The position numbers and the translations under genes are program-made. This document shows, piece after piece, positions 27,224 to 37,878 of a stretch of 64,000 nucleotides of DNA (positions are counted from its first letter, which is position 1; every line of letters begins with the position of its first letter). This DNA comes from Campylobacteraceae bacterium (GTDB lineage: Bacteria > Campylobacterota > Campylobacteria > Campylobacterales > Sulfurovaceae), in contig JAMOOQ010000038.1 of NCBI GenBank assembly GCA_027100635.1, positions 1 through 64,000 on the forward strand. The letters are read 5' to 3'. The notes under the pieces are model-generated. The model saw only the letters and a list, made by a program, of their open reading frames with translations. It had not been told where the DNA came from and searched no databases.

Positions 27224-27733
27224 TTAAAGTTTTTGAATAGTTCTTTTATGGTATGTTATCCAGTGTGAAATACCTGTTGTTATATGTTGATTAATATCTC
27301 TATATCTTACATAAACATCAACAATAATATTGGGGCTAATATTAATACCACCTGTTCCTTTAGTAACAATAGGGGCTGTATTTAAAATTCTTGCAGGGGT
27401 GCAACTTAAATTATTTCCTATATAAGATATATTAACATTTACTCTATAGCCCATTCCACCATCTACTGAACCTTCATTATTCTCACCTATAATAACATTA
27501 CCTACATCACCATTAATATTTTCTACACAAGTTCCAGTGGTACTATCATTACCACTAACTGCCAAAATTGCAAGTTCTGTATAACTTTTTGCTAATAAAA
27601 TTGATTGTTCTTTTTGATATTGAGTGGCTGTTGATTTTACAATTTTAGCAGACATTGTAAAAACCAATGCACTAATAGCCGTCATTGTAACCATAACTGA
27701 TATTGCCATCAACATAGAAAATGCTTTTCTCAT
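27224..27733 (-). CDS. Prepilin-like protein lacking Glu5 (PilX/GspK-like position)
   Basis: KAFSMLMAISVMVTMTAISALVFTMSAKIV: hydrophobic class III-type N-terminus; position 5 is Met. Confidence 0.65.
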   Translation of the reverse strand: MRKAFSMLMAISVMVTMTAISALVFTMSAKIVKSTATQYQKEQSILLAKSYTELAILAVSGNDSTTGTCVENINGDVGNVIIGENNEGSVDGGMGYRVNVNISYIGNNLSCTPARILNTAPIVTKGTGGINISPNIIVDVYVRYRDINQHITTGISHWITYHKRTIQKL

Positions 27734-28680
27734 CTGATTACCGCCTTCTCTTTACATGTAGATATCTCTTCATCCAAACCAGTTCTTTCTTTTACACAAA
27801 TTTTAAATCTAACATTATCACCAGAACCAGAGAATCTAAATACACTAATATTTCTAACTAAAACTTTACTATTAGCATTTATATAGCTTTCTCCTTCCCA
27901 TGGTTGATAATCATATCGTAAGACTAAATCACATATATTATTTAGGTTACTCATTATATTAGTATCACATATTTCTGTTGTTCCTGATTTAACAGGTACA
28001 AGAGCATAAGCACTTCGTGTTAAAGAGTATTGTTCATGGACTCTTTTAGCTACATTATCACTTAATGTAATATTAGTATTATCTGCTATTGATCCAATGG
28101 TTGAGATGCATGATCTATCTCCTGTATAACCAATACAGTTTATATCATATCTCTGAGTAGAACTATATCTTAACCCAGAAAATATAAGTGCCATATCTGA
28201 AATATCACTCTTTGATACATTTTGTACTATACTTGATAATAATCCTAGATTTGACCCAGGAGTTGAGATATTTGATCTATTTGAATCAGCAATATCACAA
28301 AAACCACTCCATGATGGTCTTCCATTTGCATCATTTGTATTAAAACTATCAATTGCCAATCCATACCATTCAAGTATTGGATATGTTGAGGCATCTGGAA
28401 TTTGATTAATTAAAACCGTATCATTATCATCAGCTGGATTTCTACCAACAGTTGTTCTTGCAATTCTGTGAGAAAGCCTATTTTGTATAATAGAAGCAGC
28501 TAATTCTGTTTTTACACTACTTTTATGAAGCCCTCTTTGTGTTACATAATTAGAATAAACTTGTGCCATAATCTCTGCACCCATAGAAGCCACTATTCCC
28601 AAAACAACCATTACAAAAATAAGCTCTATCATAGTAAAAGCTTTTCGTTTTTTTGAACTATTTAAATTTATTTTTTTCAT
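27730..28680 (-). CDS. Type IV pilin-like prepilin (PilW/MshO-like)
   Basis: KKRKAFTMIELIFVMVVLGIVASMGAEI N-methylation motif. Confidence 0.8.
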   Translation of the reverse strand: MKKINLNSSKKRKAFTMIELIFVMVVLGIVASMGAEIMAQVYSNYVTQRGLHKSSVKTELAASIIQNRLSHRIARTTVGRNPADDNDTVLINQIPDASTYPILEWYGLAIDSFNTNDANGRPSWSGFCDIADSNRSNISTPGSNLGLLSSIVQNVSKSDISDMALIFSGLRYSSTQRYDINCIGYTGDRSCISTIGSIADNTNITLSDNVAKRVHEQYSLTRSAYALVPVKSGTTEICDTNIMSNLNNICDLVLRYDYQPWEGESYINANSKVLVRNISVFRFSGSGDNVRFKICVKERTGLDEEISTCKEKAVIR

Positions 28681-29420
28681 TAATAGTCCCTTGCTTGAGC
28701 AAATCTATAGTGACCAAGATTACACATAAAAGCACTAAGTCTAATATTCTTAGCTAATTCTTTTACATCACTTTTGGTTGTTAAATTTACACTAACTAAT
28801 TTTATATTTGTAGTTCCTGATGGTGTATTATTAAATGGATGATTAAATGTAAGTGTAGTGCCATTATAAGTACCACTACTTGGATTATCTGAACCAAAAG
28901 CAACAGTAGTTCTAAGATTAATATTTAAATCTATATAATTGTCTCCACCAGCATCTGAATCTCCTTTTAAAGTGGTATCTTTTCCATCATAATCATCAAT
29001 ATCATCTAATGGTTCTCCAACTTTCAAATCATCAGCATTACCCTCTCCAAATTGACCACTATCAACTGCATTAATAACTCCACCTTCACTAGATACAAAA
29101 GATCTAAAACTTGCTATAGGTGTTCCAATTCGTCTTGCTGTTGTCAAACTAACCATATCTAAATCATCATTACCATTATCAACAGTTAAAACCACTGGGT
29201 CAATTCTTTTATTGGTATTGCTAACATCCCACTCTTTTGTTAGCAATAGATTAACTTGAGAAGCCAAAACATTAATAGACTCTTGTTGAAGAGCCACATA
29301 ACCACTTCGTACAGATTGGTTTATAAGTGTAGGAGCACTTAACAATACAATTGCCATAATAACAATTGCAAAGATAAGCTCTATCATTGCAACCCCTTTA
29401 CGATGTAAAACTGTTATCAT
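28680..29420 (-). CDS. Type IV pilin-like prepilin (PilV/MshD-like)
   Basis: RKGVAMIELIFAIVIMAIVLLSAPTLI prepilin motif; shares base 28680 with the next CDS. Confidence 0.8.
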   Translation of the reverse strand: MITVLHRKGVAMIELIFAIVIMAIVLLSAPTLINQSVRSGYVALQQESINVLASQVNLLLTKEWDVSNTNKRIDPVVLTVDNGNDDLDMVSLTTARRIGTPIASFRSFVSSEGGVINAVDSGQFGEGNADDLKVGEPLDDIDDYDGKDTTLKGDSDAGGDNYIDLNINLRTTVAFGSDNPSSGTYNGTTLTFNHPFNNTPSGTTNIKLVSVNLTTKSDVKELAKNIRLSAFMCNLGHYRFAQARDY

Positions 29421-29437
29421 TTTATCCCCCTTTTCCC

Positions 29438-32400
29438 TTACCAGTTTACTCTCTGTCTTGTTTGAGAACTACTTCCATTTGTATCAATGATATGACCTCT
29501 CTCACCAACTCCTGACCAAGTTTCCGTAGGTGCTACAATAAATTCTACTTGATATGTATATCTTCCCATAGCATCTATTGGATCATATCGTAACCAAGGA
29601 GAAGGTTCAAGTCTAATATCAACCATCTGTTCACCTGCATCATTACGTACTGTTACATCTTCATCAGTACCATTAGCTCTAATATCAATAGCTTTAACCG
29701 TAGCTGAACCTACTATCACATTAGAATTTATCACACCATCTAGTTGATTAATAGAATCAAAACTTCTGTTTATAAACCAACTATTTTCATTAATTATATC
29801 ATCTGATAAATTTGTTACAAATGTATTACAATCAATAGATGGATTAAAATCACAGTATATATCTGAAAATATTGGTGTTTTCTCAGAAATTTCTGTAATC
29901 TCTGGATATAATTTTCTTGATGCACGAACCCTAGAATATACAAATGTAATATTTTGATTACTATATGTTCTATCTATATCATTAGTTGAAGCTTTTGTAG
30001 ATAGACCATCTGTAATAGTTTCTGTAGCAGTAATATCAGATACATTTAAATCAAATGGATTAGATGGTACATTTAAATCTTTTGTAAAGTTAAATGGAAT
30101 ACTAATGTTAGCAACACCACCTGTATAGTCCAGTTTATCTATATCATATTGTAAAAATATCTCTGGGTCTGTTGTCAGTTTTGCCATATCCCAAACTTGT
30201 CTATTTCCACCCGCTGGTGTAAATACATACTTTAAACTATTTACTGTAGTTGTATTTATTGCATCTGCTGTTGTATCAAAATCTAAATTTATTTCTGTAT
30301 TTTGAGCAGAACATACACCAGCATAGTTCGGAGCAACAGTGCCGTCAGCCCGTAGAGCAGTCACTCTAAATGCTAAACTAGCAGCCATTGTCTTATTTAA
30401 ATTAGTAATTTGGTCTAAACTTAAATCAGATAGATGAGTATAAGGATTATTATTAAAATTATTAAGAGATATACCATCTACTCTAAGATTACTTGGTCTT
30501 ACTGTGATTACTTTCGATGTATTAAATGGTGTGATATATCTATCACCATTTGCAGTATCCCCTGGTTTTGCATCTGTAAATGCAAACTCCTGCCCATTAA
30601 TTTCGCTAATACTTAGATTATAAGTTGATACATTTGGCAAGGTATAATCAGCAGTAACAGTTCCATCTGAAAAACTAACATTTGGAGTAAAGACAGGATC
30701 TAATACATCACAACTTCTAACTACATTTGTTAAGGCTACATTAAATGAGTTACCTTGACTTTCATTATATCTTAAAGTTGGATTACTATTACTATCAAAT
30801 GCATTAAATGTAATCGCAGATGGATTTTGAGCTATATAACTTGTACCTATAGTGGAATTAAATCTATCTGGTCTAATTGCAAAATCATCATCTGAATATA
30901 CTAATCTATAACCTAATCTATTTGGTTGATTTATTGTATAGTAAATTCCATTTTGACAAGATTCATAAGGGTATACAGTATATTGTTCTGTTTCATCACT
31001 ATAATCAGCACACATTGTAAATTGAACTCTTACATTTTTATATGCACCTGCAACCTTAAAGCTTTTTAACTCTCTATCATTTTTAGTTGCATTAAACATC
31101 TGTTTATCACCATTATCAATAAGAGTTGTAATAACCTCTGGTTTATCTGAACCTGATGAATCTACAAGTTGATAAAGCACCTTTATATCAAAAGATGCTA
31201 TATCTGCAGTATACCCTTTAGCAATTAAAGTAGCTAAAGCTTGTGCATAAAATGGAAAACCATTATGTATTTTCTCTTTTGCTTCAAATCTATCTCTTTC
31301 GTGATTTAAACTAGCTAACATAAGTTGAAACTTATTATTTACAATCTTTGTTCTAGTGATTTTAGCATCTATCGTACTATCTGTATTCCATGCACTAAAA
31401 GGTCCTTTATTATATAAATCAGCATTATAGACTCTACAAACACCTCTTACACTAAGTTCATCAATTTCGTGGTTATTACATCCTCCACCAGTACCAGAGG
31501 TAAAGGCTAATCTTACCTTTTCTGGTGCTTCTGCCTGATTATACATTGGGTCTTTTGCATCAAATTCATTAATTACAGTTTTATATCCATTACCACTATC
31601 TTGTTGTAAAGATATTAACAGTTTTGCAGGATCTCTTGCATCAATTCTAAACTTATATCTATCTCCTGGATAACTTGAATTTCTCATTTTTGTTGCCACA
31701 GTATGATTTAAATTTGTATTTGCACCCAAAAACTTATATCCATGATATCTATCACTTCCACTTAAATCACCACTAGAACCTCTTATTGTCACATTATTTG
31801 GCTTAAATCCAACTCCTCCATCTCGCCCCTCATTAGGGTTAGAGAAGTTTCCATATTCATCAATACCAAGACCAATCCATCCCCCTTCAAATCCTTTTTT
31901 TCTATGTCTTTGAGCATATCCCATTGAACCACCAAAAGAACCAACTTCAGGAGAGTGACCAACATCTGAATCAAATAGTACCATTACAATACCATCAGCT
32001 CCCCACTTACCTATACCACCACCTTTTGTAGCAGTAGAACCCTTTTCACATCCACCATAAGCATATTGAAGATACTCAACCTCAATTAAATTCCATTTTG
32101 CTAAAAAATAGTAATCTTTGGTTACGGCAGTTGCCAAACTATGGCCTCTATCTGTTAATCTAAGTCTTCCATCAACTATTGCTGGCTCAAATCCACCTTG
32201 AGAGAATAGTGTTCTCCATTTATCATCCAATGCACTACCAAAATTATCTTTAAAACATAAAGGGACATCATCTTCTGTTTGAACAGATATTGTAAGATTA
32301 GTCTCTTTAAGGCTTCCAAGCGTTACATCTTTACCAGTTGTTACAAGTTTAAGTTTTCCAAAAAATGTTTCATCATTTTCTATACGGTTATCTCTATTTA

Positions 32401-35400
32401 TTGTTGTACTTACTGTTGCAGACATATGCCCAGCTAAAATTGTCACTTGCTCTGGATTTGGATTATTCTCTGTATAATCATAAATCGCCTGAGCATGTAT
32501 TCTCTCATCGTAAGGGTCACCATCAAAAGTTTCATATTCAACAATTACATCATAATCTAAAACCTCATTTAGTGTAATATTTACATCTTTATATGTAATA
32601 TACTCTACACCACCATCAATAGCAGGTTCTTTAAATATATATTGATTTGAACTAAATTGTACAAAAGCACTACACTCTCCCATACCATTATTATTTAATC
32701 CTGTCGGATCATATCTAAACTTTGCATTGTTACTTAAGTATAAATCATCTTCTGCTGTAACTCCACCAATAAAACCTTCTCCTGAATTAGAGTTTGCAGA
32801 TAGTATAAAGTTTCCTTTTGTGTAAAAGAATGCTGTTACATCCCATTGAGCAGAACCATTATTTGGAAACTCAAAGTTACTTTGTCCAAATACAAAGAAA
32901 TTAGAAGCAGTTCCGCCTTTATTAACAGTTAGTTCATTTCCTTCCCATCTTAGAGTACCTCGTAAAAAGATTCTAACTTTTCCAGTAGCTTCAATCGTTA
33001 AATCATTTCCTTGATGTCTCCAAGAATTTATATAATAATCACCATCGGTAAATACATACTTTATTCCTGCTTTATTCCCACTATCAAGGTTTCCTATCAT
33101 CATATATTTTCTACCACTACTATACGCTTCTGTTGCATTAAATGTTATAGTAATATTTCTACTACTTGCAACATAACTTCCAACCTCTTTTTGAACTATT
33201 GTAGTACTTTCTGTAAGAGTTGTAGAAGATAAATCTGTTGTACTTTTAAATGGAACATTATAATCTATAATATTTGGAGGTTTAACCTCACAAGGAACAT
33301 TATTACATAGTGCATCATCTGTTGTAATAGTATCTCCGTTTTCATTAACAGCTGGAGATACTTTTTTATAAGGTGCGACAATATTTGCTACATCAAGAAT
33401 AATAACCTTATTACCTCCACCACCATCTAGTGTTAAGTTTTGATATGTTTGTAATGCACTTGGAAAAATCCCACACTGAGATAGTTCAGGTTCATCATCT
33501 TCTTCACCAGTAGCATTACAATCGCCATATCCACTATCAGCTAAATCGCTATCATAACATACTTTGGTATCGTTATCTAACTGGATTTTATTTTCTGCAG
33601 ATACTGCACCTTTAATATAACTAGCACTTCCTAATATCACATCTTTTTTAGAGTAGATAGCACCTACTATTCTTGAATCATTATGGACATTAAAATTACC
33701 ATAAGCAAAAATAAACAGATTTGAAGCACTATGAGTATCACTACAAAGATTAGATCCACCAGTAGTATCACTATTGATTCCAATTTGAGAAATAGTTTCA
33801 TAATCATCTTCTATAATTAAATTAACTTTTCCATGCATATTCCACTGATAACCACTTCCACTACCTTGAGTAGAGAGAGTTTTAATATAATATGTACCTG
33901 AATCAAACTCAATATGATTATTAGACCCAGTATCAAAAAGATTCATTTTAACAACAACTTTTTTACCTGAAGTATATGGAGTAATATTTACTCTTGTGGC
34001 ATCACCTATCTCAAATGTACCAATATCTATATAATCTGCAATAATATTAATTATATTTTCTTGCCCAACACCTGATACATCTTTTATGCTATTAATATTA
34101 ATATAAGGAGCTCTAAGAGTATAGTTACTTGTATGACCAATATATAATTTATCTATTTTAATTGTTTGAATAGCTTTAAAATCAACAAGAATTTTTGCAC
34201 TACCTTGAGTTGAAATATCATATTGACTAATTGTCCCTATTTTAATATTTTTTGCCAAACTATCAGTTGTTTTAAATTCACCATCCTCTTTCGTTTGAAG
34301 AGAACCTATACTAAATTGATACTCTTTAGAATCAGCACTTTTAAATGTAACTAAAGCTGCATCAGCACCATTTTTAATACTATTAACTGCAACACTTGTC
34401 GTAACTTCAAATGGAATATTTGTTGTTCCACTATTCCAATCAGAACTAACAGTATTATAATCACTATCTGTTAATTTTGTACCGCTTGTATTAGTAGTAT
34501 ACTTTACATTTGTAGTAGAAGTAGATACTGGTGATGCTATTGTAAATGTGGCTGGATATTTCATCCCATTAGTTGGGTCAGCAAATGCCTCAGCACCATG
34601 CATAGATGGTGTACAACCGGCATTATCCCCATCTGCTCCTGCCGTATCATTACAAGTTATCTCATTTCCAGGTCCTCCATTTACAGGAGTTGAATATGTA
34701 TTAAGATCTTTATCTGGATTATTATATAATTTTGCACTACCACTACTAAAATCTACACTAGAATCAATAGCTCTTGTCTGAAGACCATCTTCAAATACAC
34801 CACATCTTTCTGGCAATACATTTGGATTATCATTTGGTATTGTTTCATCATCTAAATCCACATTTGTACTAGAGTCACACGCAACAACTTGACCTCTATA
34901 ATTAACACCATCTTTAACATAAGTGGCATATAAACTACTAGTATTTAAACAACTCATACTCATTGCAGCAGTTGTTGATACTCTTGCATTTGTATCTTCT
35001 GGTGAAATTGAGTTTGTAAATGAAAATGCCGTTGTAGTACCAAGCATCCCCATAGGACCCATATCAATATTACTACTAGTATCACAATTTCCAGATGGTT
35101 CAACAGCACAATTAGCAGACATTGTTCCACCCATTCCAGACTCATCATAATAGACATTAACTTGTTCAAGTGTAGAATCTGCCACATTATCTAAAGGAAT
35201 ACCAGTAGTACAACCAATTCCACCTTTACACATTCCCATATCCATACACATCATTCCACTAAATGTAAAATCAGCATAACATATATCATCCGCATTTTCT
35301 ACATAAGTAGTAACTGGTTCATTTGGAAATAGATTTGTTGTTGGAACTATAGTTTTTACAAATATATCTTTATTATTTTGCCACTTAACATGTACATTGG

Positions 35401-37072
35401 CACCTCCACCTTTTTCTATAAACTTTATCTCAATAGGATAATATCCCATTGTAAAAGATTTTAATTTAGAATTTTTATATTTATTTTTACTCCATGTATC
35501 AAGATAATATAACTCTTCTCCATCAATAGTTAATCTTAAATCATCATCATGCTTTAACCAAAATTGATAATTCCCATCTTCTGGAATATATATCCATCCC
35601 GTCCATGTAACAGAAAAGTTATTATTACCTAATCCACCACCAGGATTACCATTACCCCAATCCCAATCAACAGTAGGATCAATTCTACTTATATTTGGTG
35701 TTCCACTCCAACTAGTATTATCATAATATTTGGCATTTAATCCATTTGTTGGAGTTGATGTAGCATCATCTTCTGAAACGACTATATTAAATGATTTAGA
35801 ATTAGAAACCCCATCGATATCTGTAGCAGTCAATGAAACAGGAAATGAACCAATATCAGCACTAGTTCCACTAAGTGTGCTACCATTAAATGATATTCCA
35901 GAAGGCAAAGTTCCATCTAATTCATAGTTTGTTATATCATCATTTTGAGTTTTATTAACAAATACAGATAAATCAGAGCTAAATGCTACATCTTTTTTTA
36001 TAGCTTGTTCTGATATAGTATCTATAACTGGAGGTGTTCCTGTTACTTTTATAACAAAACTTTGCTTATTTGATTCTCCATCTTTATCTGTTACACTAAC
36101 CTCTATCGGAAATTCACCAGTTTGTGTTGCAGTTCCACTAATTATACCTGTAGTAGTATCAAAACTAACTCCATCAGGCAATGCTCCTGTTTTATTATAA
36201 GATGTAATATTATCATTTTCTGTCTTATTGACAAATGTTGATAAATCTAAATTTATAGTATCATCTATCTTAATAATCTCATAAGGATTAGGTGTAATAG
36301 CATCAAGAGTTGGAGGTGTTCCCTCTTGTTGTGTTGATTCCACAATAGTTAAATAAAAATCTGTATCAGTTTGTAGAGAACCATCTTTTACTCTACCACC
36401 TATATTGTTACGCTCCAAAGTATACTCTGGAGTACCACTAATAATACCAGTTGCAGTATCTAAAGATAATCCACCAGGCACCCACCAAGTTTCATAAGTT
36501 AGAGTATCTCCATCAGGGTCAGTTCCATGCATTTGATAACTAAAAAATTCACCTTTAACTGCTGTTTGATCTGGTATGGGATCAATAGATGGTGCACTAT
36601 TGGAATCTGTAATTGGAGTAAAAGAGAATTTTAATGTATATCTCATATAATCTCTATCTGTTTTTATAACTTTTACATAATATGTACTACCTCCAATTAC
36701 ATCAAAGGAGGAGGAAGGGTGAGTATACGATTTAGAAGAGCCATTATATATATCTTTACTATCACAACCTCTACCTATAAAAAACTTGACTTTCATCTTA
36801 TTTCCCCATTGATGTGTACCTTCAGATAAAGATACTGTACCACTAGCCGATGGTGTAAATTTAAGATATATATTTTTCTTAGTACTCCATGAACCTTCAT
36901 AAGAATTTTCAACATTAGATATACTATTAGAAACACCATCTAATGTTGAAATATTATAAGATGAAGAACAAGTATTAGGTGCTGTTTTTACACCCCATAA
37001 AATATTTGGTAAAATAAATAATAAAGCAAAAAGATACTTTAGATATACTCTACTTCCGTTTAGCTTTCGCAT
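29438..37072 (-). CDS. Giant (2544 aa) multidomain MshQ-like surface protein: Ig/cadherin-like repeats, PA14, Calx-beta, lectin-like and DUF6701-like C-terminal regions
   Basis: Signal peptide VYLKYLFALLFILPNILWG; LPxGISFNGSTLSGT repeats; GLNAKYYDNTSWSGTP…GWIYIPEDGNYQFWLKHDDDLRLTIDGE (PA14); lectin-like GIGKWGADGIVMVLFDSD…GGWIGLGIDEYGNF; MSHA/DUF6701-like C-terminus. Confidence 0.82.
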   Translation of the reverse strand: MRKLNGSRVYLKYLFALLFILPNILWGVKTAPNTCSSSYNISTLDGVSNSISNVENSYEGSWSTKKNIYLKFTPSASGTVSLSEGTHQWGNKMKVKFFIGRGCDSKDIYNGSSKSYTHPSSSFDVIGGSTYYVKVIKTDRDYMRYTLKFSFTPITDSNSAPSIDPIPDQTAVKGEFFSYQMHGTDPDGDTLTYETWWVPGGLSLDTATGIISGTPEYTLERNNIGGRVKDGSLQTDTDFYLTIVESTQQEGTPPTLDAITPNPYEIIKIDDTINLDLSTFVNKTENDNITSYNKTGALPDGVSFDTTTGIISGTATQTGEFPIEVSVTDKDGESNKQSFVIKVTGTPPVIDTISEQAIKKDVAFSSDLSVFVNKTQNDDITNYELDGTLPSGISFNGSTLSGTSADIGSFPVSLTATDIDGVSNSKSFNIVVSEDDATSTPTNGLNAKYYDNTSWSGTPNISRIDPTVDWDWGNGNPGGGLGNNNFSVTWTGWIYIPEDGNYQFWLKHDDDLRLTIDGEELYYLDTWSKNKYKNSKLKSFTMGYYPIEIKFIEKGGGANVHVKWQNNKDIFVKTIVPTTNLFPNEPVTTYVENADDICYADFTFSGMMCMDMGMCKGGIGCTTGIPLDNVADSTLEQVNVYYDESGMGGTMSANCAVEPSGNCDTSSNIDMGPMGMLGTTTAFSFTNSISPEDTNARVSTTAAMSMSCLNTSSLYATYVKDGVNYRGQVVACDSSTNVDLDDETIPNDNPNVLPERCGVFEDGLQTRAIDSSVDFSSGSAKLYNNPDKDLNTYSTPVNGGPGNEITCNDTAGADGDNAGCTPSMHGAEAFADPTNGMKYPATFTIASPVSTSTTNVKYTTNTSGTKLTDSDYNTVSSDWNSGTTNIPFEVTTSVAVNSIKNGADAALVTFKSADSKEYQFSIGSLQTKEDGEFKTTDSLAKNIKIGTISQYDISTQGSAKILVDFKAIQTIKIDKLYIGHTSNYTLRAPYININSIKDVSGVGQENIINIIADYIDIGTFEIGDATRVNITPYTSGKKVVVKMNLFDTGSNNHIEFDSGTYYIKTLSTQGSGSGYQWNMHGKVNLIIEDDYETISQIGINSDTTGGSNLCSDTHSASNLFIFAYGNFNVHNDSRIVGAIYSKKDVILGSASYIKGAVSAENKIQLDNDTKVCYDSDLADSGYGDCNATGEEDDEPELSQCGIFPSALQTYQNLTLDGGGGNKVIILDVANIVAPYKKVSPAVNENGDTITTDDALCNNVPCEVKPPNIIDYNVPFKSTTDLSSTTLTESTTIVQKEVGSYVASSRNITITFNATEAYSSGRKYMMIGNLDSGNKAGIKYVFTDGDYYINSWRHQGNDLTIEATGKVRIFLRGTLRWEGNELTVNKGGTASNFFVFGQSNFEFPNNGSAQWDVTAFFYTKGNFILSANSNSGEGFIGGVTAEDDLYLSNNAKFRYDPTGLNNNGMGECSAFVQFSSNQYIFKEPAIDGGVEYITYKDVNITLNEVLDYDVIVEYETFDGDPYDERIHAQAIYDYTENNPNPEQVTILAGHMSATVSTTINRDNRIENDETFFGKLKLVTTGKDVTLGSLKETNLTISVQTEDDVPLCFKDNFGSALDDKWRTLFSQGGFEPAIVDGRLRLTDRGHSLATAVTKDYYFLAKWNLIEVEYLQYAYGGCEKGSTATKGGGIGKWGADGIVMVLFDSDVGHSPEVGSFGGSMGYAQRHRKKGFEGGWIGLGIDEYGNFSNPNEGRDGGVGFKPNNVTIRGSSGDLSGSDRYHGYKFLGANTNLNHTVATKMRNSSYPGDRYKFRIDARDPAKLLISLQQDSGNGYKTVINEFDAKDPMYNQAEAPEKVRLAFTSGTGGGCNNHEIDELSVRGVCRVYNADLYNKGPFSAWNTDSTIDAKITRTKIVNNKFQLMLASLNHERDRFEAKEKIHNGFPFYAQALATLIAKGYTADIASFDIKVLYQLVDSSGSDKPEVITTLIDNGDKQMFNATKNDRELKSFKVAGAYKNVRVQFTMCADYSDETEQYTVYPYESCQNGIYYTINQPNRLGYRLVYSDDDFAIRPDRFNSTIGTSYIAQNPSAITFNAFDSNSNPTLRYNESQGNSFNVALTNVVRSCDVLDPVFTPNVSFSDGTVTADYTLPNVSTYNLSISEINGQEFAFTDAKPGDTANGDRYITPFNTSKVITVRPSNLRVDGISLNNFNNNPYTHLSDLSLDQITNLNKTMAASLAFRVTALRADGTVAPNYAGVCSAQNTEINLDFDTTADAINTTTVNSLKYVFTPAGGNRQVWDMAKLTTDPEIFLQYDIDKLDYTGGVANISIPFNFTKDLNVPSNPFDLNVSDITATETITDGLSTKASTNDIDRTYSNQNITFVYSRVRASRKLYPEITEISEKTPIFSDIYCDFNPSIDCNTFVTNLSDDIINENSWFINRSFDSINQLDGVINSNVIVGSATVKAIDIRANGTDEDVTVRNDAGEQMVDIRLEPSPWLRYDPIDAMGRYTYQVEFIVAPTETWSGVGERGHIIDTNGSSSQTRQRVNW

Positions 37073-37229: not shown

Positions 37230-37395
37230 AACACCTTAGCCAAAAAAATCCAAAATCATTAAGCCACATCTCCATGAATCATCGAAAATGCCGAAACTCT
37301 CCAAATTGCCTCATTAATTAAAATATCATCCACTTTTTCCCCATATAATTTTAATACTTCTCTAGTATATTTCTCTGCTCTTATGATTAGAATTT
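37230..37395 (-). pseudogene. 3' remnant of an IS transposase with its terminal inverted repeat
   Basis: Reverse strand reads IRAEKYTREVLKLYGEKVDDILINEAIWRVSAFSMIHGDVA* followed by TTTTTTTGGCTAAGGTGTTG, the same terminal motif as the element at 386-1139. Confidence 0.6.
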
Positions 37396-37878
37396 ACCTT
37401 TACTTTTTAAAGTAGTTAATATACTATATAAAGAATTTAATCGTTCTTTCAGCTCAATACTTTGTTCATTTAAAGCATTATTAAAGTTTTGCTTTTTATT
37501 ATCATCAATTGATTCTTGAATTATCTGTATTCCTGATAATTGATTTTTAAAAGTATTTCTTTCAAATTCACAAGTATTATCTTGGCAATCCAATAAAACT
37601 TTTGCTATTAAAGTTGTAGAATCAATAATTCTGTGTAAAGGAACTTCTTCTGATTGACGTGACCATTTATCGCCAGTATGTCTCATAGTTTTTAATGAAA
37701 TATCTTCTTCATCCCATTGAGATATACCAATAGATAAATATTGACAATCTGTATTATTTGCAAAGTGACCATCAAATTGTGTATATGGTATTGCGTATAC
37801 TGGTTTATGTTCTAAATTATGAGATAAATTCTCATTTGCTTTATAACTTTTTTTATTTCCAAATTCATTTATTGGCAT
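37387..37878 (-). CDS. Hypothetical protein, possibly DUF6530-like
   Basis: HKPVYAIPYTQFDGHFANNTDCQYLSIGISQWDEEDISLKTMRHTGDKWSRQSEEVPLHRIID; family recalled, not verified. Confidence 0.55.
   Translation of the reverse strand: MPINEFGNKKSYKANENLSHNLEHKPVYAIPYTQFDGHFANNTDCQYLSIGISQWDEEDISLKTMRHTGDKWSRQSEEVPLHRIIDSTTLIAKVLLDCQDNTCEFERNTFKNQLSGIQIIQESIDDNKKQNFNNALNEQSIELKERLNSLYSILTTLKSKGKF

Follow-up and report, generated by a model that had tools for sequence, protein, structure and literature searches.

In type IVa pili (T4aP), the minor pilins PilHIJK are located at the tip and are capped by PilC/PilY1 (PMC10191384), and in type IVb pili (T4bP) the secreted proteins TcpF/CofJ are hooked onto the tip minor pilin (TcpB/CofB) by a flexible terminal peptide in which an aromatic residue is key (PMC9565799). 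Among the classes of type IV pilus, the mannose-sensitive haemagglutinin (MSHA) pilus is the least characterised: its presence in Epsilonproteobacteria, almost always as a single locus, was reported in 2019 (PMC6668835), MshQ was counted in 2022 among the components of unknown function (PMC9815625), and a 2023 review, judging MSHA too poorly characterised, omitted it from the table of components (PMC10191384). In Vibrio cholerae, losing the putative adhesin MshQ lowers the amount of surface MSHA (PMC7096442), as would be the case for a part with a priming or capping role. Here we describe, in a 64,000-nucleotide stretch of a Sulfurovaceae genome (hereafter the window, on contig C38), four minus-strand genes encoding a giant secreted protein and three minor prepilins, Pil1, Pil2, and Pil3. 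These genes probably correspond to MshQ-D-O-P and make up the tip and priming block of an MSHA-type pilus, the remaining genes of which are found at other sites in the genome, with the giant serving as tip adhesin.

The original prediction was that the block may draw on pilus machinery encoded outside the window, and would have been refuted by a genome without such machinery; the genome bears the prediction out. No pilus machinery was found in the 64-kb window and no pilus ATPase on its contig; a genome scan placed the T2SSE-family ATPases on contigs C26, C12, and C8 only. Contig C12 carries an MSHA-type assembly operon, MshI-J-K-L-M-N-E-G, in which MshI, J, and K were assigned by position. 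This operon shares with gammaproteobacterial MSHA (mshI...G, mshB-A-C-D-O-P-Q) an MshL-type secretin over the cut-off (TIGR02519, 258 bits, cut-off 250.2; the GspD and PilQ models reached 155 and 140 bits, each under its own cut-off), an MshE with the MshEN domain (T2SSE, E 7e-132; MshEN, E 2e-18), and an adjacent MshG (T2SSF, E 4e-48), together with an MshM-like ATPase (AAA_22, E 2e-14) and an MshN-like protein with weak TPR-like matches, both at the expected place between MshL and MshE. The NCBIfam GspE/PilB equivalog models gave scores below their cut-offs. Contig C8 encodes PilT and PilD, which places the prepilin peptidase outside the Msh locus. Unlike the gammaproteobacterial arrangement, the candidate major pilins (MshA) form a separate tandem array of four type IV pilins of 130-147 aa on C19, and similar small pilins adjoin two of the contiguous operons of relatives described below (L171 and L183). 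The MSHA parts are thus spread over C12, C19, C38, and C50, and the usual single-locus trait is absent here; the model of Denise et al. 2019 (PMC6668835), whose criteria were applied, permits several loci and allows the major pilin to be a loner. The gammaproteobacterial reference was one MSHA locus, that of Aeromonas caviae, in which the mshQ region is split over several open reading frames (ORFs) with intervening transposase genes; the MSHA locus of Vibrio taketomensis, with its fragmented annotation, was left out of the comparison. The A. caviae locus lies on NZ_AP026896.1 (L075), a 4.94-Mb sequence that is filed as a plasmid and looks like a chromosome.

The arrangement of these genes in relatives revealed how the block and the machine belong together. 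In four loci (L170, L171, L182, and L183), the giant, Pil1, Pil2, Pil3, a fourth pilin gene (Pil4), and MshI, J, K, L, M, N, E, and G follow one another contiguously, and a fifth (L178) keeps the same order but has the giant and Pil1 separated by two additional genes. These loci represent five other genera in four families, with L170 in the window's own family. Because the block is joined to MshI...MshG in all five, it is not autonomous; it is the tip and minor-pilin part of an MSHA-type operon that has been separated from its machine in Sulfurovaceae. On the strength of these contiguous operons, a stand-alone novel system was rejected, and the candidate stand-alone tip module originally proposed with it. 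Seven further loci (L174-L177 and L179-L181) hold the block apart from the machine, mostly beside hpf, bamD, or lon as in the window. Across 80 named loci and the window, which come from Sulfurovum, Nitratifractor, and other Campylobacterota, the order giant-Pil1-Pil2-Pil3 is kept wherever the genes are present; hpf, bamD, or lon is close by in 66 of the 81, and a machine gene was found near the block in none of them within the stretch examined per locus. Closed genomes likewise keep Pil3 and MshL far apart (approximately 190 kb in G033, 242 kb in G042, 223 kb in G121, and 301 kb in G020), so the split cannot be put down to genome assembly.

Despite their distance, the two parts tend to occur together. 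Among 88 good genomes of the family, Pil3 and a strong MshL were both present in 77 and both absent in 4, with only one of the pair in the remaining 4 and 3 (Fisher p 0.0009, from hand-read counts uncorrected for relatedness). Additionally, the C-terminal region of the giant and the pilins co-diverge beyond what is seen for the adjacent hpf (partial r 0.55-0.62, p 0.001), a pattern that fits co-evolution and also joint transfer of linked genes. Pil3 was detected in 121/150 genomes of the family and in 136/249 sampled across the phylum; the block is conserved across much of the phylum and is not peculiar to the source genome, whose campylobacterotal origin and MshQ-like giant with minor pilins had been recognised correctly from the start. 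One genome of the family, G007, has two MSHA-type systems, since it carries a complete contiguous operon of this type (contig C17, L170) in addition to a split block.

The pilin families themselves are conserved over their full length. N_methyl (PF07963) was matched over the cut-off by Pil2 (E 2e-6), was borderline for Pil1 (hmmscan E 5e-4, just under the cut-off; 23.3 bits in the genome scan, over it), and was not matched by Pil3; Pil1 also reached TIGR02523 (PilV) under the cut-off (E 3e-4). Among the sequences with letters at the site, Glu5 is present in 75/75 Pil1 and 78/78 Pil2 homologues and in 0/81 Pil3 homologues, where residue 5 is Thr, Met, Val, or Ile. Judged by this alignment column, the lack of Glu5 in Pil3 is not a matter of chance, and the three prepilin N-termini, with a GspK/PilX-type third, stand as first read. 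A missing Glu5 is the mark of GspK/PilX-type apex subunits, and A. caviae MshP, like the MshP-like Pil3, lacks it as well. A DDIDDF/NDVDDF motif is common to Pil1 and Aeromonas MshD, and an FD-x-x-GRP motif to Aeromonas MshC and Pil4, the MshC/FimT-like fourth pilin family. Pil4 adjoins the block as a single copy in most relatives; in the source genome it is a tandem gene pair on contig C50 after folE (L022:3876-5193), and genomes of the same genus likewise carry it on a separate contig. The block in the window lacks this fourth subunit.

Two further observations concern the pilins. The residue preceding the prepilin cleavage site, usually Gly, is more often Ala than Gly in these families (Ala/Gly 59/16 in Pil1, 68/10 in Pil2, and 63/18 in Pil3), suggesting that the prepilin peptidase here probably accepts Ala. 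A plasmid of Legionella adelaidensis (L076:10927-12618) bears an MSHA-type locus whose last pilin lacks Glu5 and is 563 aa long; no giant gene lies near that locus, and this pilin perhaps carries an adhesive domain of its own.

The conserved portion of the giant family is its last 660 residues. Pfam did not match DUF6701, the MshQ domain, on the window giant alone; the domain (PF20419) was matched by 7/58 C-terminal homologues (best E 1.6e-13), and the family profile aligned to the DUF6701 region of Aeromonas MshQ with 92% probability over 185 columns. The originally proposed DUF6701-like C-terminus is thus recovered through relatives only, as a divergent DUF6701. As in gammaproteobacterial MSHA, this DUF6701 giant stands beside D/O/P-type pilins. 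The model of the region is a chain of Ig-like beta domains (mean pLDDT 82.5) and returned generic Ig-chain matches only, with low TM-scores, in a fold search. The block as a whole also resembles the T4aP sets FimU-PilV-PilW-PilX-PilY1 and PilHIJK-PilC in combining H-, I-, J-, and K-type pilins, the last without Glu5, with a large modular Sec-secreted non-pilin protein; it differs from them in the DUF6701/Ig-chain C-terminus of that protein, with no PilC beta-propeller domain among the Pfam families listed for 20 giant homologues.

At the end of this region, the residue at the very C-terminus is Trp in 80/84 giant homologues, and the tail, W-x-G-x-G-x-x-G ... R-x-x-W, contains several of the most conserved columns of the family. 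It is also the sole large stretch of the C-terminal model with a pLDDT below 50. Conservation of a tail that the isolated model leaves unfolded suggests that it takes up its fold on binding a partner. A. caviae MshQ has no such Trp tail. The tail could hook onto a tip pilin much as the peptide of TcpF/CofJ does, although that peptide sits at the N-terminus and belongs to unrelated secreted proteins. By this analogy, it is conceivable, if still tentative, that the last ~26 residues act as a portable signal for docking to the pilus and for secretion, equivalent in MSHA to the N-terminal signal of T4bP, and allow adhesive heads to be exchanged on a constant pilus tip in Campylobacterota.

The heads do differ among relatives, drawing on Calx-beta, He_PIG, Big_9, cadherin, PA14, F5/8C, CUB, Ig, and lectin domains, while the C-terminus is constant. 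In the window giant, residues 266-432 resemble the cadherin-like modules in the solved structure of the adhesin SraP, the nearest solved structures to the PA14 domain are the PA14 domains 6qdi and RsgI3 6qe7, and a second copy of DUF7305 occurs elsewhere in the protein. The predicted fold of residues 1605-1882 resembles legume lectins (peanut lectin, Foldseek E 2.9e-9) and ERGIC-53; the model is of modest confidence (mean pLDDT 61) and was used since the lectin match was strong and consistent. Of the domains first proposed for the giant, Ig and PA14 were recovered over their cut-offs and the lectin by its predicted fold, but Calx-beta stayed below threshold in the window protein and is strong in relatives (up to E 4e-35). 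No lipobox was seen at the N-terminus. The coordinates of all features are collected in Table 1.

Table 1. Features of the MshQ-like giant and minor pilin genes in the window (coordinates in nucleotides of the window)
Feature	Coordinates	Strand	Basis
MshQ-like giant, 2544 aa	29438..37072	minus	ORF; N-terminal Sec signal peptide read from sequence
Pil1, MshD/PilV/GspI-like minor prepilin (G/VAMIEL, cleavage at slash), 246 aa	28680..29420	minus	ORF and motif
Pil2, MshO/PilW/GspJ-like minor prepilin (A/FTMIEL), 316 aa	27730..28680	minus	ORF and motif
Pil3, MshP/PilX/GspK-like minor prepilin without Glu5 (A/FSMLMA), 169 aa	27224..27733	minus	ORF and motif
Ig/cadherin-like repeats of giant	35777..36277	minus	He_PIG E 3e-31, over cut-off
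PA14 domain of giant, aa 443-568	35369..35746	minus	E 7e-19, over Pfam cut-off
DUF7305 of giant, aa 1283-1457	32702..33226	minus	E 1e-9, over Pfam cut-off
Calx-beta-like region of giant, aa 1489-1595	32288..32608	minus	18.6 of 27 bits, under Pfam cut-off
L-type lectin-like domain of giant, aa 1605-1882	31427..32260	minus	PF18483 E 0.0026 (weak) and fold match
Conserved C-terminal region of giant, divergent DUF6701 (MshQ), aa 1883-2544	29441..31426	minus	profile and model
C-terminal tail of giant, aa 2518-2544, candidate docking peptide	29441..29521	minus	W-x-G-x-G-...-W-COOH conserved

The four ORFs, their extents, and their junctions (a 17-nt gap between the giant and Pil1, a 1-nt overlap between Pil1 and Pil2, and a 4-nt overlap between Pil2 and Pil3) are as originally given. 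A single transcript for the block would follow from these junctions only; promoter-like sites were not enriched (79 against 69.8 +/- 10.8 in shuffled sequence). The block is followed downstream, on the same strand, by hpf (ribosome hibernation factor), the gene of a BamD-like lipoprotein, and lon. Upstream, a DUF6530 gene (37387-37878) separates the giant from the valyl-tRNA synthetase gene, valS. Since valS is a neighbour of the contiguous operons L171 and L183 too, this location may be ancestral.

Taken as the tip of an MSHA-type pilus, the block would function as follows. Pil1, Pil2, and Pil3, together with the MshC/FimT-like pilins of C50, would form a four-subunit complex of the H-I-J-K type that primes filament assembly on MshE/MshG, with the Glu5-less Pil3 at its apex. 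The giant would enter the periplasm via Sec, bind the priming complex through its DUF6701-like C-terminal region, and exit through MshL on the growing pilus. As tip adhesin, its exchangeable PA14/Ig/lectin head may then bind carbohydrate on surfaces or cells, and PilT would retract the pilus.

Several points weigh against this interpretation. The tip location, secretion route, docking, and ligand of the giant are ones that we infer. The gene order Q-D-O-P(-C), upstream of MshI when contiguous and split off in Sulfurovaceae, differs from the gammaproteobacterial one, as in the Aeromonas locus, where C-D-O-P-Q follows the machine genes. Without the N-terminal helix, Pil1-4 showed almost no signal against MshD/O/P/C when trimmed profiles were compared with single A. 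caviae sequences, so that orthology is argued from synteny, from motifs, and from the DUF6701 profile. In two Helicobacteraceae-like loci (L172 and L173), in which the pilins are divergent from MshI...MshG, no giant was found near the pilins and machine, indicating that the giant is not needed by every such pilus.

The main rival explanation is that the pilus serves mainly for DNA uptake (competence), its tip proteins capturing DNA or a DNA-rich matrix rather than adhering. The genome encodes a ComEC-like protein, MshL-type secretins occur across the phylum, and transformation in Campylobacter jejuni uses the Cts system, which resembles a type II secretion system (T2SS) or type IV pilus and has the secretin CtsD (PMC10046745). 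However, most genomes of one genus in the phylum sample (g20) retain an MshL-type secretin but match Pil3 weakly or not at all, which means that the block is dispensable for the core machine, and the recognised domains of the giant are of carbohydrate and adhesion types, with no DNA-binding domain among them. We therefore regard DNA uptake as an unlikely main role, while noting that the two functions are compatible.

Contig C26 holds a separate T2SS locus, and GspG-type and other pseudopilins and GspJ/K-like proteins are encoded on C26 and C10. Directly downstream of gspD, gspE, and a gspJ-like gene on C26 lies a second giant secreted protein gene (at least 2596 aa; L006:12112-19901); its product gave no match to the window giant in a search of the genome and is possibly a T2SS cargo. 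With a giant gene adjoining a T2SS locus in this way, the window giant could also be a surface protein in its own right, exported by the T2SS for instance, whose gene simply happens to be in one operon with minor pilins that only prime the pilus. This appears improbable: in the loci that were read, the giant lies ahead of Pil1, directly except in one case where two genes intervene; the divergence of its C-terminal region tracks that of the pilins; and the homologous DUF6701 protein MshQ belongs to the MSHA operon, where its loss lowers V. cholerae piliation (PMC7096442). That Pil1-3 are alternative pseudopilins for the C26 T2SS is very improbable, even though T4P and T2SS have H-I-J-K minor pilins in common, which can replace one another in piliation (PMC10191384), since the genome has pseudopilins of its own on C26 and C10 and relatives show synteny of the block with Msh rather than Gsp genes.

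Our literature search, which left most subscription literature outside its reach, found no published description of a split Q-D-O-P block or of a Trp-tailed MshQ branch. Loci across the phylum that tie MshQ to four pilins, with a constant C-terminus and exchangeable adhesive heads, provide a testable model in which MshQ is the PilY1 equivalent of MSHA, and the Trp tail offers a discrete piece to test. The finding also suggests a way in which Sulfurovum-type bacteria may attach to surfaces in their sulfidic habitats.

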